This document shows, in pieces, positions 4,380 through 24,310 of a stretch of DNA of 64,000 bases; positions within the stretch are counted from its first letter, which is position 1, and the number at the start of each line of letters is the position of its first letter. The notes beneath the pieces are model-generated. The model was not told where the DNA came from and ran no database searches. It saw only the letters and a list, made by a program, of their open reading frames with translations. The translations under genes were made by a program, and so were the position numbers. This DNA comes from Candidatus Gastranaerophilales bacterium (GTDB lineage: Bacteria; Cyanobacteriota; Vampirovibrionia; Gastranaerophilales; Gastranaerophilaceae), in assembly GCA_944324365.1 (NCBI GenBank), contig CALUWA010000001.1:186001-250000 (forward strand), in the 5' to 3' direction.

Positions 4380-4407
4380 TTGAATTTTATAAAAAAACAT
4401 TTATAAT
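4380..4407 (+). promoter_or_regulatory. promoter of the G-tract prepilin gene
   Basis: TTGAAT, a 16-base spacer and a perfect TATAAT lie 45 bases before the ATG at 4452, which has the strong Shine-Dalgarno sequence AAGGAGG. Confidence 0.65.
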
Positions 4408-4451
4408 GTGTATATAAATTTATTTTAAATGTACGAGTTGAAGGAGGACAT

Positions 4452-5243
4452 ATGAAAAGGACGGATATAGCTAAATCCCAGGGGGGGGGGGGGGTAAATT
4501 CCTTATATAACAAGGGTTTTGGCCAATTATTAAATTATCAAAATTTTGGATTTACATTAGCGGAAGTTTTAATTACATTGGGGATTATTGGAATTATTGC
4601 GGCGCTTACACTTCCTACACTGCTAGGCAAAGTTCAGGATAAAATATTGGAAGCGCAGGTTAATAAGGCAAAATCAGTAGTTGTAAATGGCTACAAACTA
4701 ATGATGGCGCACTATGAAATATTTAAAGTCGAAAATATCCCGTTTTTAGCCAAATGCAACTCCATGGATGACATAGAATGCGTATCAAAAGAGCATAAAG
4801 AAGCTTTTCAAATTTTGACAGACAGTGCTGATGGATTGTCAGCAGATATAATGCCTGAACAATATGCTGTTGAAGGAAAAAACTTGCCGTCACCATTTAA
4901 GTGGACTGATACCAAATATATGTATAGAACAGGTGACGGAATGGTATTTGGAGTTATTCCAAATGACACCTTCACAAGTTTTGATATAATTGTTGATGTT
5001 AATGCTAAAAGCAATCCAAACACAGCAACCAAAGACTTAAGAAAATTCAGATTTTCAAGTGATGGCGGCCAATTATATGATGTAAGCGAAGAGCTTACGA
5101 AAGTAACAGAATGCAGTTTTGAAAATATTGCAGGTTGTACAACCGAAGAAGAATGCCGCTCAATTGAAGCTCCGTCGACTGATGTTGGACATTGGGAAAT
5201 TCGCTGGTACGACGGAGCCTGCCATGCAGATTACAATTTATAA
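4452..5243 (+). CDS. type IV prepilin / pseudopilin-like protein with a phase-variable G14 tract
   Basis: The 263-residue protein has an N-terminal methylation motif: GFTLAEVL followed by a ~20-residue hydrophobic helix (about residues 33-55). Prepilin peptidase should cut after this Gly, and Glu+5 is present. The rest is a globular domain with several cysteines near the C-terminus (ECSFENIAGCTTEEEC). The leader before the cleavage site is unusually long, ~32 residues, and holds a run of 14 G in the coding strand encoding GGGG. With 14 G the gene is open. With 13 G the frame reads TAA directly after the tract, and with 15 G it stops five codons later, so the gene should flip ON/OFF. A Wzy-like gene follows after a terminator. 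Confidence 0.85.
   Translation: MKRTDIAKSQGGGGVNSLYNKGFGQLLNYQNFGFTLAEVLITLGIIGIIAALTLPTLLGKVQDKILEAQVNKAKSVVVNGYKLMMAHYEIFKVENIPFLAKCNSMDDIECVSKEHKEAFQILTDSADGLSADIMPEQYAVEGKNLPSPFKWTDTKYMYRTGDGMVFGVIPNDTFTSFDIIVDVNAKSNPNTATKDLRKFRFSSDGGQLYDVSEELTKVTECSFENIAGCTTEEECRSIEAPSTDVGHWEIRWYDGACHADYNL
4481..4494 (+). repeat. poly-G tract (14 G) in the prepilin gene
   Basis: Fourteen consecutive G lie at codons 10-15 of the prepilin gene. The translated state is in frame; loss or gain of one base gives an immediate or near-immediate stop. Such a run is not expected by chance in AT-rich DNA. Confidence 0.95.
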
Positions 5244-5296: not shown

Positions 5297-6418
5297 ATGC
5301 AAAATTCAATAAGCAACAAGTACGCAACATATCTATTTACAGCTTTATATTCAGCAGGAGCAATTTTCTGCATATTTTTAACAAGTGTCTACATTATGGA
5401 TATTTATCAATATATGGACACTCAAAGAATTATATTAAAAATCCTATATGCAGTAGGTATAGCGTTTAACATTTTTGTATTTAAAACATATAATTTTAAA
5501 AAATATATTATTCATTTTCTCATAACCATACTAATTTTAATCGCTGCAACACAATCAAATTCCTATTACAAGATAAGTTATTTATGGTTTTTTCTGCTTG
5601 CAATTCCGCCAATCAGCCTGAAACAAATATCCAAAGCAGTACTTACAATCACAACTGTATCAATTATTAGCGTTATCTTAATCACCGCATTCGGAGGCGG
5701 AGAAAACATCTCTTTTATCCGTCCCGGAACTAATTTTATAAGGTATTCATACGGATTTTTAAATCCAAATCTATTTGCGGCGTATCTATTCCAGATTTGC
5801 ATCACATTTGCATATATAAGATGGAAAACCTGGAATTCAAAAGATAACATACTTATGTTTTCAATACTCTGCCTGGCTTTTTTCTTTACAAATTCCAGAA
5901 CAACTTCAATACTTATATTACTACTATTCTTGGCCGTCAACATAAGTAATCATATTAAGATAAAACATGTAATTAAAATTCCGCAAAGTTTACTGCTGAT
6001 ATGTCCGGCATTTACTATAATCACAAGCAAATTATATTGTATGAGCAGCACGTTTGCCTACTTTCTTGATGAAATATTCTCATATAGGTTTAGAAATGCC
6101 TGTTATTCAATGGCAAGTTATCCAATTAGTTTTTGGGGCAATAATATAAAAATAACACACGATATGCTTTTAATTGATAATATTTACGCAAACTTACTTA
6201 TACATTATGGAATATGCATAAGTCTTTTATTTTTTACAGGATACTGGATAATGTTAAAAAAAGCATTCAAAAATAATAATATACCGCTACTCGTAATATT
6301 AACACTAACTATCCTCCAAGGTATAACAGAAAGTATTCCTCTGATATATTATTTAAATTTCTCTATTCTAACATTTTCCGCTCTCTTAAACAATACAAAA
6401 TTATTTAACGAAACTTAG
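5297..6418 (+). CDS. Wzy-like O-antigen/capsule polymerase (putative)
   Basis: The 373-residue protein is almost entirely membrane-embedded, with about 10-11 helices by eye. Two features fit polysaccharide polymerases/ligases of the Wzy/WaaL group: the GFLNPNLFAAYLFQI segment (about residues 152-167, like the G-x-x-(N/H)-P-N motif) and TNSRTTSILILL (about 197-208, like the conserved SR(T/G) motif). Wzy enzymes join undecaprenyl-linked repeat units on the periplasmic face. It sits between a prepilin gene and argS, away from the glycan cluster at 17-30 kb. The start overlaps the terminator region by only a few bases, and the ribosome-binding site is poor. The function is a family-level inference. 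Confidence 0.55.
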   Translation: MQNSISNKYATYLFTALYSAGAIFCIFLTSVYIMDIYQYMDTQRIILKILYAVGIAFNIFVFKTYNFKKYIIHFLITILILIAATQSNSYYKISYLWFFLLAIPPISLKQISKAVLTITTVSIISVILITAFGGGENISFIRPGTNFIRYSYGFLNPNLFAAYLFQICITFAYIRWKTWNSKDNILMFSILCLAFFFTNSRTTSILILLLFLAVNISNHIKIKHVIKIPQSLLLICPAFTIITSKLYCMSSTFAYFLDEIFSYRFRNACYSMASYPISFWGNNIKITHDMLLIDNIYANLLIHYGICISLLFFTGYWIMLKKAFKNNNIPLLVILTLTILQGITESIPLIYYLNFSILTFSALLNNTKLFNET

Positions 6419-20651: not shown

Positions 20652-21950
20652 CTAAGAGCTATGAGGAAGCCCCCCCCCCCCCGAAATAGGCGCTATAGCA
20701 GGCTTTACAGCCATTTGTTCATCATATATTGTTTGTTGCAATTCTGTAGTCTTGAAATCTATATAATCATACAAATCAGAACGCAACTGTAACAATTGAT
20801 AATTCAATATCCCATTAAAATCTACTGTCTTTATTTTGAAAATTTTAAAGAAAGATTTACACAAATAACCCTTTGAATAATATTTTTTATATACAGTAAA
20901 ACCAAACACTCTGATAAGGGTTTCGGACTTGTCTGCTTTATGGAAAAATAAAAATTTATTCAATTTAAAAAGCAAATAAGGAACTTTTTTTATAATTTTG
21001 TAATCACTATATTCAGGCAACTCTTTTAAATTTTCTTCGGAATAATAGCGTTCATCAGCACTTAATATAAAATCTCGCAATTTGTCAAAAAAGCGTTTAC
21101 GCTGTGAACGATGTGCTAAATGCATATATCCAAACAAATGATCTACTACAATTTGAACGACATATTTAGCACACTCAGGAGTTAAAGATTTATACATGAA
21201 TTTACTTAAAACTTCGGCAAACATAAATGGGTCATCAAAATAAGGACAATCCGACTTTGAATACCCCTTAACCACACTCGAGGAAATATTTACACGATAT
21301 GAATGCAGCCTATCATTTATAACAAATATTTTATCCGCATTTACCATATTCTTAATACTGTAAACAACATCCGGCAGTACACATTTTATACTTTCATCAA
21401 ATTTGTTATCTTTATCAAAAACTAATTCACGTTTTACAAACTTATTCCAATCTTGCAATGGAGTAGACATAATCAACCATTTATCCAAATCATTGAAATT
21501 AAAACATTTATTGCGATATTGCTTTGGAAAAGTAGAAAATCTATAATGAAAACTATTTACATACTCTTGCTTTTGTTGGTCGTACTCATCAGAGCCAAAT
21601 AAAATTAAATCTGCAGAAGTTTCAATTGCCTTATTATACAAAATTTCAACTGCATTTTCTTCCAGCCAATCATCGGAATCCAACAATTGAATATAATCTC
21701 CGGTAGTAGCCTCAAGAGCAGCATTTGCCGCTTTTGCAAATCCCTGATTTTTATTAAATTTTATCAATTTAATCTGCGGATAATTTTTACTATAATTTTC
21801 TAAAATTTCTGAATTATTACCTGTAGCACCGTTATCCACAAGAATAAATTCTATATCTTTAAAAGTTTGATTAAGCACACTCTCTATGCAAACTTTTAAA
21901 AATTCTTCTTTTGGATTATACACTAATGTAATTATTGACACTTTTGCCAT
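20652..21950 (-). CDS. GT2 family glycosyltransferase with 3'-end poly-G tract
   Basis: The 432-residue protein has a GT-A fold GT2 domain (about 1-230) with VSIITLVYNPKEEF, FILVDNGATGNN, GFAKAANAAL and QLLDSDDWLEENA (DSDD near 92-95). A C-terminal region carries the RVFGFTVYKKYY tail shared with neighbours. Codons ~424-428 are a run of 13 G giving SGGGG before the final LPHSS. With 14 G the protein ends ASS. With 12 G it gains ~50 residues and reads through the downstream hairpin to a stop at the next gene's ribosome-binding site. The start ATG has AGGAG upstream. Confidence 0.88.
   Translation of the reverse strand: MAKVSIITLVYNPKEEFLKVCIESVLNQTFKDIEFILVDNGATGNNSEILENYSKNYPQIKLIKFNKNQGFAKAANAALEATTGDYIQLLDSDDWLEENAVEILYNKAIETSADLILFGSDEYDQQKQEYVNSFHYRFSTFPKQYRNKCFNFNDLDKWLIMSTPLQDWNKFVKRELVFDKDNKFDESIKCVLPDVVYSIKNMVNADKIFVINDRLHSYRVNISSSVVKGYSKSDCPYFDDPFMFAEVLSKFMYKSLTPECAKYVVQIVVDHLFGYMHLAHRSQRKRFFDKLRDFILSADERYYSEENLKELPEYSDYKIIKKVPYLLFKLNKFLFFHKADKSETLIRVFGFTVYKKYYSKGYLCKSFFKIFKIKTVDFNGILNYQLLQLRSDLYDYIDFKTTELQQTIYDEQMAVKPAIAPISGGGGLPHSS
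20670..20682 (-). repeat. poly-G tract (13 G on coding strand), 3' end of GT2 gene
   Basis: A run of 13 C on the given strand lies eight codons from the stop of the GT2 gene. It is preceded on the coding strand by ATTTC, as in the tract at 23273-23284. Confidence 0.95.
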
Positions 21951-21953
21951 TAT

Positions 21954-23099
21954 TTATTTCTCCTTAAACTTGATACATTTCAAATAAGTTCGCACTTTTT
22001 TATTCCCTTCCTTACTTGATTTATAAATTGTTAAATTACAGATTTTAATTTTTTTACAATCTGCTGATATCTGCTTTTTATATAGAAAATCTTTAATTTT
22101 TCCAAATACATAATTATACTTTTGTACTTTTCTGATTTTTTCTCTCAAGGATTCATTTAAGATACTTAATCTAACAGGTGTATAAATCTCAGGATTTAAA
22201 GATTTTAAAACTTTACGCATTTCAGTATAATATTTTCGCCTGTTTGATTTATGAATCATTCCATAAAATAAAAATAAATGTTCAAAATTTATTTCTATGA
22301 AAGGAAGCGCCAATTCATCATCTAAATTTTTTGACAAAATTAAATTATCAATATTTTTAAATAATTGCATATTCATCAAAAAATCCCTGGAGCCCTTTGT
22401 CCTGAGAGTATTTACGACCCCCCCCCCCGTGTTAACCCTGTAATTATAAAGCTTTTCACGAACAACACCTATTCGCTTTGCATTCAAATAATTATAAAAT
22501 GTGAATAATGCATCCGCACCTGCAGACCCCTGCTCTTCATTTACAAAGTTATTATTGTCTATGATAAATTTTCTACGATAAAATTTATTCCAAGCCTGCG
22601 TAGGAAAATGTAAAATAAAATCTTTTACATCTTTAAAAGTAAAATACGAATTATCATATTTTGTAGGAATTTCAAAAAAAGTGTAAGCAGGCTCATCCGT
22701 AAAATTCTGAATCAATTCATCATAAGTTCTTGCACAGAAAATAGTCATATCCAAATCGGTATTATCCAATTTAGCCGCCAAAATCTCTATTGCATTATCT
22801 TCAATCCAGTCATCAGAATCAATTATTGCGATATAATCTCCTTTTGCTGCACGCAAACCTGCATTTACAGCTCCGGCAAAACCTTTATTTTTCTCAAATA
22901 CTATTAAATTTATTCTGTCATCTTTTGCGGCATAATCTTTCAATATTTTCGGATTATCGCCAGTTGACTCGTTGTCAACTAAAATTATATCGAGATTTTT
23001 GTATGTTTGATTTCGTATGCTATCAATACACTTTTTTAAATAATCTTCCGGCGGGTTATATACCGGAACTATAACTGATACCTGTGATTTTTCTTTCAT
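21954..23099 (-). CDS. GT2 family glycosyltransferase with mid-gene poly-G tract
   Basis: This ~381-residue GT2 enzyme has VSVIVPVYNPPEDYLKKC, IILVDNESTGDN, GFAGAVNAGL and IIDSDDWIEDNA. The start at 23099 is preferred over an ATG eight codons upstream because AGGAG lies 8 bases before it. A run of 11 G encodes TGGGV in the loop after YNYRVN, where sister enzymes have YRVNISSSVV, so the tract replaces ordinary sequence. In the present frame the gene is complete. With 10 G it stops at once (TCG TAA); with 12 G it stops within about 20 codons. Its C-terminal tail, KICNLTIYK, matches its neighbours. Confidence 0.88.
   Translation of the reverse strand: MKEKSQVSVIVPVYNPPEDYLKKCIDSIRNQTYKNLDIILVDNESTGDNPKILKDYAAKDDRINLIVFEKNKGFAGAVNAGLRAAKGDYIAIIDSDDWIEDNAIEILAAKLDNTDLDMTIFCARTYDELIQNFTDEPAYTFFEIPTKYDNSYFTFKDVKDFILHFPTQAWNKFYRRKFIIDNNNFVNEEQGSAGADALFTFYNYLNAKRIGVVREKLYNYRVNTGGGVVNTLRTKGSRDFLMNMQLFKNIDNLILSKNLDDELALPFIEINFEHLFLFYGMIHKSNRRKYYTEMRKVLKSLNPEIYTPVRLSILNESLREKIRKVQKYNYVFGKIKDFLYKKQISADCKKIKICNLTIYKSSKEGNKKVRTYLKCIKFKEK
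22418..22428 (-). repeat. poly-G tract (11 G on coding strand) inside GT2 gene
   Basis: Eleven C on the given strand are placed in the middle of a glycosyltransferase gene. The present length keeps the gene open. Confidence 0.95.
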
Positions 23100-23146
23100 T
23101 ATGTTTCTCCTGTGAATATTCATTTATTTTATATTAAGCTGCAAAA

Positions 23147-23196
23147 CAGCCGCATGTTAAATGACACTCATACAAATATCATTTAAGATGCGGCTG
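23147..23196 (-). terminator. internal hairpin of the polysaccharide operon (first)
   Basis: Two stacked stems of nine (CAGCCGCAT/ATGCGGCTG) and eight pairs (TTAAATGA/TCATTTAA) are separated by one G-G mismatch, with a 14-base loop; on the minus strand TTTT follows. The stop codon of the preceding GT8 gene (in its 12-G frame) lies inside the hairpin. Confidence 0.7.
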
Positions 23197-24310
23197 CATT
23201 GCATATTGAATATATTTTCGAATTGTAAGGTAGCTTTCCTCCGAAAAGTCTTAATCCAGCAGGGAAAATCAGCCCCCCCCCCCCGAAATGAGCTTTACGA
23301 GAGGCTTTGCCGGCTCTTATACATTGTTTTATCAAATTCCTTTTATTTAGCAATTTGTCTTTTCTTTTACCAGAAACAAAATTTGAGATAAATTTATAGA
23401 ACCAATATCTTAATACATTTTTTCTGTAATAAATTTTACTTGTTAAATAGTATAGCTCTAATTTATCCCTGTTTTTCATCATACGCTCTAATATCAATTC
23501 ATAAAAAGAAAGTCTTCTTGCATAATTCCACCAGATTGAACTAAATGTACAATCCTCTGCATATAACCATGGTTTCTTTTCAGACGCATAATGAATTAAA
23601 CCTGAGCCGTTTTTAGCATCTTTAAAGGCTTCTTCTTTTTCATCCTCATGAGTATATGGTACATTTGAATACACATTCCACTTTTGAGGGAGATAAACTG
23701 TTTCAAGGTAGAATGTTCTGTTAAAAATATCCTGATCCGGAAAAATTAATTTTGAACCATATTTTTTAATATTTTCAAACATTTTTTGCTCATAATTCTT
23801 TTTGCGCCACAGCTCAAGATTTGCCAGAAACATACCCGTATTGCAGTAGCGATATTTTTTAGGAATATCAAAAATTTCCTGAAATTCTTCACACCATGGA
23901 TCTTTTACTGCCGCAAATGCTGATTCACCCATATCATGATCAAATAGTTCCCTCAATGAACTTTGTACTATCATATCAACCTCAAGTACAAGAGCTTTTT
24001 TGATATCTTTAAATATTGAAGCAATTTTCATTTTATAATTACACAAATTATTTATAAAAAATGCCTTACACACAGGAACATCCTTAATATCATCCGGATT
24101 CATTTCGACATATTCTATATCAAAATCTCCAAATTTTCTTACTTCTTCAAGACGCACCTTATCCGCTTCTGTTATATCCTCACTCATAATATGAAAATAT
24201 AACTTGTCTTCATCATTTTTGTTACATAAAATAGATGTTAATAAAACAGCTAAATACGGAACATAATGCGAAGAAGAAGGAATGATAACATGCATTACAT
24301 CATCAATCAT
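23183..24310 (-). CDS. GT8 family glycosyltransferase with 3'-end poly-G tract
   Basis: The 375-residue GT8 (LgtC/glycogenin-like) enzyme has an N-terminal HVIIPSSSHYVPYLAVLLTSIL, metal site KALVLEVDMIV (E-x-D in place of the usual D-x-D), YCNTGMFLANLELW, FPDQDIFN and LIHYASEKKPW. A run of 12 G near codon 343 gives HFGGGGL and then a 27-residue tail running into the downstream hairpin. With 11 G the protein would end right after the tract; with 13 G it would get a different ~35-residue tail. The ATG overlaps the end of the upstream epimerase gene. Confidence 0.85.
   Translation of the reverse strand: MIDDVMHVIIPSSSHYVPYLAVLLTSILCNKNDEDKLYFHIMSEDITEADKVRLEEVRKFGDFDIEYVEMNPDDIKDVPVCKAFFINNLCNYKMKIASIFKDIKKALVLEVDMIVQSSLRELFDHDMGESAFAAVKDPWCEEFQEIFDIPKKYRYCNTGMFLANLELWRKKNYEQKMFENIKKYGSKLIFPDQDIFNRTFYLETVYLPQKWNVYSNVPYTHEDEKEEAFKDAKNGSGLIHYASEKKPWLYAEDCTFSSIWWNYARRLSFYELILERMMKNRDKLELYYLTSKIYYRKNVLRYWFYKFISNFVSGKRKDKLLNKRNLIKQCIRAGKASRKAHFGGGGLIFPAGLRLFGGKLPYNSKIYSICNAAAS
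23273..23284 (-). repeat. poly-G tract (12 G on coding strand), 3' end of GT8 gene
   Basis: Twelve C on the given strand. The coding-strand 5' flank is CATTTC, similar to the tract at 20670-20682. Confidence 0.95.

Follow-up and report, generated by a model that had tools for sequence, protein, structure and literature searches.

Neisseria opa genes carry a pentamer repeat in the leader, with roughly 4 to 12 such loci per genome. In the same genus, silent partial pilS copies donate sequence to one expressed pilin locus by recombination. Variable homopolymers of Campylobacter and Helicobacter have mainly glycan, flagellar and outer-membrane genes as their targets. The opa family is multi-copy and bears CTTCT repeats, and pilC, a type IV pilus gene, has its frame switched by a poly-G run of 9 to 20 residues within the ORF (PMC5953494; for the pilC switch, Jonsson 1991 as cited there). 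Poly-G/C contingency loci of Campylobacter and Helicobacter include an example of C-terminal switching in H. canadensis (PMC2823697). In Listeria, a homopolymer in the 5′ part of inlA leads to reversible inactivation, the interrupted allele A2GA4 locks the frame, and the idea that 5′ homopolymers act as reversible off-switches is a general one (PMC2831843).

Here, we describe a prepilin gene of a Candidatus Gastranaerophilales bacterium with a poly-G tract between start codon and prepilin processing site. It is located in a stretch of 64,000 nucleotides, which is called the window. The source genome (G000) has a size of 2.05 Mb and is 99.8% complete; counts reported below derive from pattern searches of this genome and from sequence stretches that were read. 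Coordinates refer to the window unless a locus is named.

Results

A strong Shine-Dalgarno sequence, AAGGAGG (4441-4447, + strand), read directly from the DNA, precedes an ATG at 4452 that opens a prepilin ORF of 263 amino acids (4452-5243, + strand), which is in frame and hence ON at the assembled tract length. The tract consists of 14 G residues (4481-4494, + strand) and begins 29 nt after the ATG. Downstream of it lies the prepilin processing motif G/FTLAEVL (4548-4571, + strand), recognized by TIGR02532, whose match spans residues 33-54, and by PF07963. From this motif, removal of a leader of 33 amino acids (M1-G33; 4452-4550, + strand) by prepilin peptidase is predicted, which would leave a mature pilin from F34 onward with the N-terminus F-T-L-A-E (4551-5240, + strand). 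Enumeration of tract lengths from 9 to 18 G revealed that the full pilin is read only at 11, 14 and 17 G (3n+2), while all other lengths lead to a stop about 20 codons or fewer from the start. The original prediction, made from the same DNA, had stated that the frame is open at G14, that 13 G make TAA the next codon and that 15 G bring a stop five codons on. The enumeration agrees with the first statement, reproduces the second exactly and returns K-F-L-I-stop for the third. The tract also sits, as had been proposed, in an unusually long leader 5′ of the predicted cleavage after G33. Because it is placed upstream of the prepilin peptidase site, the mature pilin would be identical in every ON length. 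A start further downstream was ruled out for the window gene: from the upstream stop at 4404 to the prepilin motif, the pilin frame has ATG 4452 and no other ATG, GTG or TTG. Altogether, the window contains four separate runs of at least nine G, equal to 18 overlapping matches against a shuffle mean of 0.07.

A promoter-like site, TTGAAT-16-TATAAT, is found 45 nt 5′ of the ATG (4380-4407, + strand) and agrees with the consensus at 10 of 12 scanned positions. This would be in line with a tract that alters transcription through promoter spacing or RNA structure. The whole stretch contains six such sites when 3.9 are expected, and the site is thus weak evidence. Moreover, the tract is positioned inside the ORF, 74 nt downstream of the promoter-like site, and the 5′ RNA fold is no better than that of shuffled sequences (z +1.2). 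We regard an effect on transcription as the least credible of the explanations weighed here.

In the window gene, matches to TIGR02532 (22.7 bits, curated cut-off 16.3) and PF07963 (23.4 bits, curated cut-off 21.2) both exceed the respective threshold, and a G/FxxxE processing and methylation motif followed by a hydrophobic helix, the hallmark of the type IV prepilin/pseudopilin superfamily, is present. The AlphaFold2 model of the mature pilin (pLDDT 84) comprises a long N-terminal helix (4-55), C-terminal strands and a beta domain. Type IV pilins of Dichelobacter, Pseudomonas and Neisseria occupied the top rows of a structural alignment with modest Z scores of 4.4-5.2. A Foldseek search of the model against the PDB gave no match under E 0.2, and PDB sequence matches to the window pilin were confined to the N-terminal helix. 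The mature part was aligned with 12 relatives. It is 92% identical to that of the nearest homologue (L036), and a dN of 0.037 compared with a dS of 0.54 indicates strong purifying selection on the mature window pilin. A single prepilin peptidase gene was detected in the genome (PF06750, E 3e-35).

The window gene is one of dozens of G-tract prepilin genes, a scale missing from the original prediction. Relative to run counts expected from first-order base composition, the genome is strongly enriched in runs of at least nine G (35 versus about 1.3 expected) and of at least 14 G (five versus 0.0004), and 30 of the 35 longer than eight residues lie in prepilin genes, 3′ of a Shine-Dalgarno sequence plus ATG and 5′ of the processing site. 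The genome total amounts to 60 prepilin motifs above the cut-off; among the others, the leader is short and ordinary in about 15 and long with a degraded run of 6-8 G in several more. At the assembled lengths, which are consensus calls of metagenome assemblies, six of the 30 tract prepilins are ON and 24 are OFF. These calls hinge on the correct choice of ATG, with a possible error of one or two genes per genome, and the counts are not independent because related genes share ancestry. Two further tracts, G9 in L017 (G000:C2:201944) and G14 in L021 (G000:C4:69191), lie in genes other than prepilins, and that of L021, at its assembled length, breaks the upstream frame.

The tract genes are dispersed over at least 18 contigs, and each is a full gene with its own Shine-Dalgarno sequence and ATG. 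Two flank classes dominate, class A with the frame open at 11 G and closed at 12 G, and class B with the frame open at 9 G and closed at 10 G. Paralogues with the same flank (83-87% identical) differ by one G and orthologues differ too, a comparison made between paralogues and between orthologues. The nearest tract-bearing paralogue of the window gene in the genome (L024/L121) is 61% identical to it and likewise has G14 in frame. Between dispersed genes the switch module, i.e. the 80 nt around the tract, is 83-87% identical, whereas the mature proteins share 30-33% (class A, L006-L041; class B, L012-L044). It follows that spread or homogenisation of this cassette took place independently of the mature part; start and tract seem to move as a unit of their own, apart from the pilin. 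The same contrast between flanks and mature proteins could arise if the G-runs were recombination start sites, gene conversion moved pilin sequence between copies and frame effects were secondary. A guanine-quartet motif near gonococcal pilE acts as such a start site. Against this speaks that tract lengths one apart set the frame exactly, that the copies are the full genes described above and not promoterless partials, and that the only run of the window gene is a plain G14. We therefore give recombination as the primary role of the tracts very little chance.

Most tract genes being out of frame, here (24 of 30) as in other genomes (77 of 89), one might suppose that the OFF genes are pseudogenes or a silent store, that the window gene is merely one with an in-frame G-run and that switching is irrelevant. 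The region between tract and motif gives a different picture. Over 2913 codons in the 30 genes, the pilin frame contains seven stops, all of them in L023 and L032, compared with 114 and 230 in the other two frames. Since these regions reach 518 nt, with leaders of up to 173 codons, the low number of stops indicates that long leaders are kept translatable, though at the assembled length they are mostly unreachable from the ATG. Of the 95 out-of-frame genes in a wider sample, 35 lack any start codon in frame. The mature domains of the OFF genes are intact (median 235 amino acids). Ten pairs of paralogues that are both OFF were examined, and dN/dS ranged from 0.06 to 0.25 in the nine with estimable dS. 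Open leaders, intact mature domains and low dN/dS argue that the OFF genes are not ordinary pseudogenes. The extra leader stops in L023 and L032 and the shortened mature part of L020 (111 amino acids) would fit decay, which we consider highly improbable for the repertoire as a whole. As judged from the gene sequences, the pattern in the OFF genes is the one predicted for phase variation, unlike that of simple gene decay. The original claim of an expression switch has thus gained support from the frame logic, the recurrence in 30 genes, the one peptidase gene and the OFF copies under selection.

It had also been suggested to check homologues for G-runs at the same place, and here the outcome was divided. 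Runs were present in L037 (G10, in frame), L038 (G7, out of frame) and L039 (G9, out of frame). They were absent from L118 and L119, both with longish leaders, and in the nearest homologue L036 the tract position is occupied by an interrupted purine run, GAGGGAGGAGGGGGG, locked in frame. On account of these differences, the tract has been gained, lost and locked between orthologues. All named homologues are from Candidatus Gastranaerophilales. In L037, the G10 (5041-5050) abuts the processing site (RGGGFTLAE), and the glycine at -1 is encoded by the tract itself.

The layout was searched in other genomes with the pattern SD-ATG-(15-45 nt)-G9 and, as a control, with the reversed pattern. Of the 60 family genomes sampled, 25 have it, and control counts were near 0. 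In a sample of 194 genomes of the phylum, matches cluster in this family; elsewhere they are few and mostly do not exceed the control, and G206 is the clearest exception outside the family (eight matches versus one in the control). Single counting yielded 90 matches in G001 and 86 in G138, which are upper estimates, given that several upstream sites may match a single tract. At 89 of 105 distinct loci sampled in other genomes the tract opens into a prepilin, 12 of them in frame and 77 out of frame. Genomes with at least six tract matches have a median of 59 prepilins compared with nine in those with none (Mann-Whitney p 6e-6), and tract and prepilin counts per genome are correlated (Spearman 0.62). 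Six genomes (G012, G016, G020, G027, G042 and G053) contain 41-95 prepilin motifs and at most one SD-ATG-tract locus each. The tract is thus an addition to the prepilin repertoire, not its condition.

Among the tract genes, G10 is the dominant length. In G000, G022, G058 and others it almost always leaves the gene out of frame, and G11 mostly puts it in frame. The ON fractions of 6/30 and 12/89 are below the one third of a free random walk; this, together with the dominance of the nearly always OFF G10, means that tract lengths are not random. The strong OFF and G10 excess suggests that most members of the repertoire are silent at any time. A fixed length that is kept is also what one would expect if RNA polymerase or the ribosome slipped at the tract, a process that would provide some in-frame product in every cell at a low level and no heritable switch, and purifying selection on the OFF genes is compatible with it. 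A programmed slippage site, though, should be constant in direction and length. The shift that would restore the frame instead differs by lineage, from -1 in classes A and B of G000 (12 to 11 and 10 to 9) to +1 in G022 (10 to 11), and some copies are in frame. Slippage during transcription or translation is therefore unlikely, if less so than the other alternatives.

Loss of mismatch repair was dismissed as a cause. MutS and MutL are intact in the source genome, so that a general repair defect would not explain a high mutability; the tract-rich genomes G001, G022 and G010 have MutL.

Three glycosyltransferase genes of the window, matching PF00535 twice and PF01501, also contain G tracts, all on the - strand. 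A 13-nt tract (20670-20682) is situated near the 3′ end of a family 2 gene (20652-21950), an 11-nt tract (22418-22428) lies inside a second family 2 gene (21954-23123), in frame as assembled, and a 12-nt tract (23273-23284) is found near the 3′ end of a family 8 gene (23183-24310). Because of the position of the two tracts near a 3′ end, a change in length would swap the C-terminus and not switch the gene off; the alternative tails comprise 7, 9 or 55 and 4, 33 or 41 amino acids, respectively. Directly downstream of the pilin gene, a polytopic membrane protein of 373 amino acids is encoded (5297-6418, + strand). It is conserved beside the pilin in the same position and order (tblastn; 93% in L036, 41% in L037), has no Pfam or NCBIfam match, and its structural model is unusable (pLDDT 36). 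Judging from the stretch RYSYGFLNPN, our guess is that it could be of the O-antigen ligase/polymerase type, which would fit pilin glycosylation.

Translated palindromic repeats (RHSEG..RRISLNKRSFAIAQDD-like) were noticed in long leaders of L016, L019, L030, L032, L033, L045, L088, L093 and others; they recall Rickettsia palindromic elements. One sequence, TCCTTCGCNNNNGCTCAGGATGAC, has 13 exact copies in the genome, about eight of them between the tract and the processing site of prepilin genes. Being removable, the leader may tolerate the insertion of such repeats.

Discussion

The findings very probably reflect a large set of prepilins that phase-vary ON/OFF at the level of translation through slipped-strand mispairing. 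Several features of slipped-strand phase-variable loci are present: homopolymers occur far above chance, gain or loss of a single unit sets the frame, and the OFF copies still have the sequence of functional genes. Replication slippage would add or remove one G in the tract. In the window gene, lengths of 11, 14 or 17 G would join the start codon to the prepilin frame, and all others would end translation early. Prepilin peptidase would then remove the leader including the tract, as suggested by the motif, with the result that the mature pilin is present or absent but not altered. If about 30 prepilins, the majority of them OFF as assembled, switch independently, the pilin subset would vary from cell to cell within a clone, and the pilins presumably assemble into a filament. 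Mutability of the tracts and switching within a population are deduced from sequence. The benefit might be evasion of phage or immunity, for example, or adjustment to changing surfaces.

A broader proposal, to which we give about even chances, extends this reading to the family (Gastranaerophilaceae, as inferred from the names of the relatives). Its members would diversify type IV filaments combinatorially: each genome would have between 30 and about 90 prepilin genes that slip independently and are mostly kept OFF at G10, the start-plus-tract cassette would spread apart from the mature pilin, and the removable leader would tolerate the landing of palindromic repeats. Some 30 switch-bearing pilin genes in one genome and up to about 90 loci in relatives point to a large and apparently unreported on/off repertoire of surface filaments. 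If true, these non-photosynthetic relatives of Cyanobacteria, which live in animal guts, possess a set of type IV pilin contingency loci that is among the larger ones built from a single gene family. Since the assembled tract is out of frame in most of these genes, gene callers miss their true start, and public genomes therefore probably show the repertoire mis-annotated or truncated. Whether phage, immunity or surfaces drive pilus diversity in gut bacteria can be tested directly, since long-read metagenomes that already exist give access to tract lengths.

A search of the open-access literature, a scope that leaves out most subscription journals, returned no paper containing both 'Gastranaerophilales' and 'phase variation', and a paper on a termite-gut melainabacterium mentions only the basic type IV pilus gene set. 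The mechanism is already known from Neisseria opa and pilC; the gene family, the lineage and the scale appear to be unreported.

With respect to logic, opa and pilC of Neisseria are the nearest systems. As in opa, many related surface-protein genes would each be switched alone by a repeat whose length sets the frame. The opa product is an outer-membrane adhesin, whereas here the switched protein is a prepilin, and repeat unit, processing enzyme and phylum differ, as does the number of loci (about 30, up to about 90 in relatives). With pilC, the tract prepilins share a poly-G frame switch in a type IV pilus gene. PilC, in contrast, is an accessory pilus protein encoded in one or two copies, and here dozens of prepilin genes themselves bear the tract. 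The large and divergent pilin set with a conserved N-terminus and silent copies resembles pilE/pilS of Neisseria. Gene conversion of the pilE/pilS type was nonetheless set aside as a class for this repertoire, given that the tract copies are full genes, with Shine-Dalgarno sequence and ATG, on at least 18 contigs. Surface-structure genes with G/C homopolymers of nine or more residues are also typical of Campylobacter and Helicobacter, and the glycosyltransferase tracts of the window fit this type; here, the main target is a prepilin family instead. The interrupted run of L036, which locks the frame, is reminiscent of the A2GA4 allele of Listeria inlA, a single gene with a far shorter poly-A of 6-7 residues. 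In a meningococcal survey, 115 variable genes were confirmed (PMC5084427), and thus the total number of switches found here is no record. The unusual point is their concentration in one prepilin gene family.
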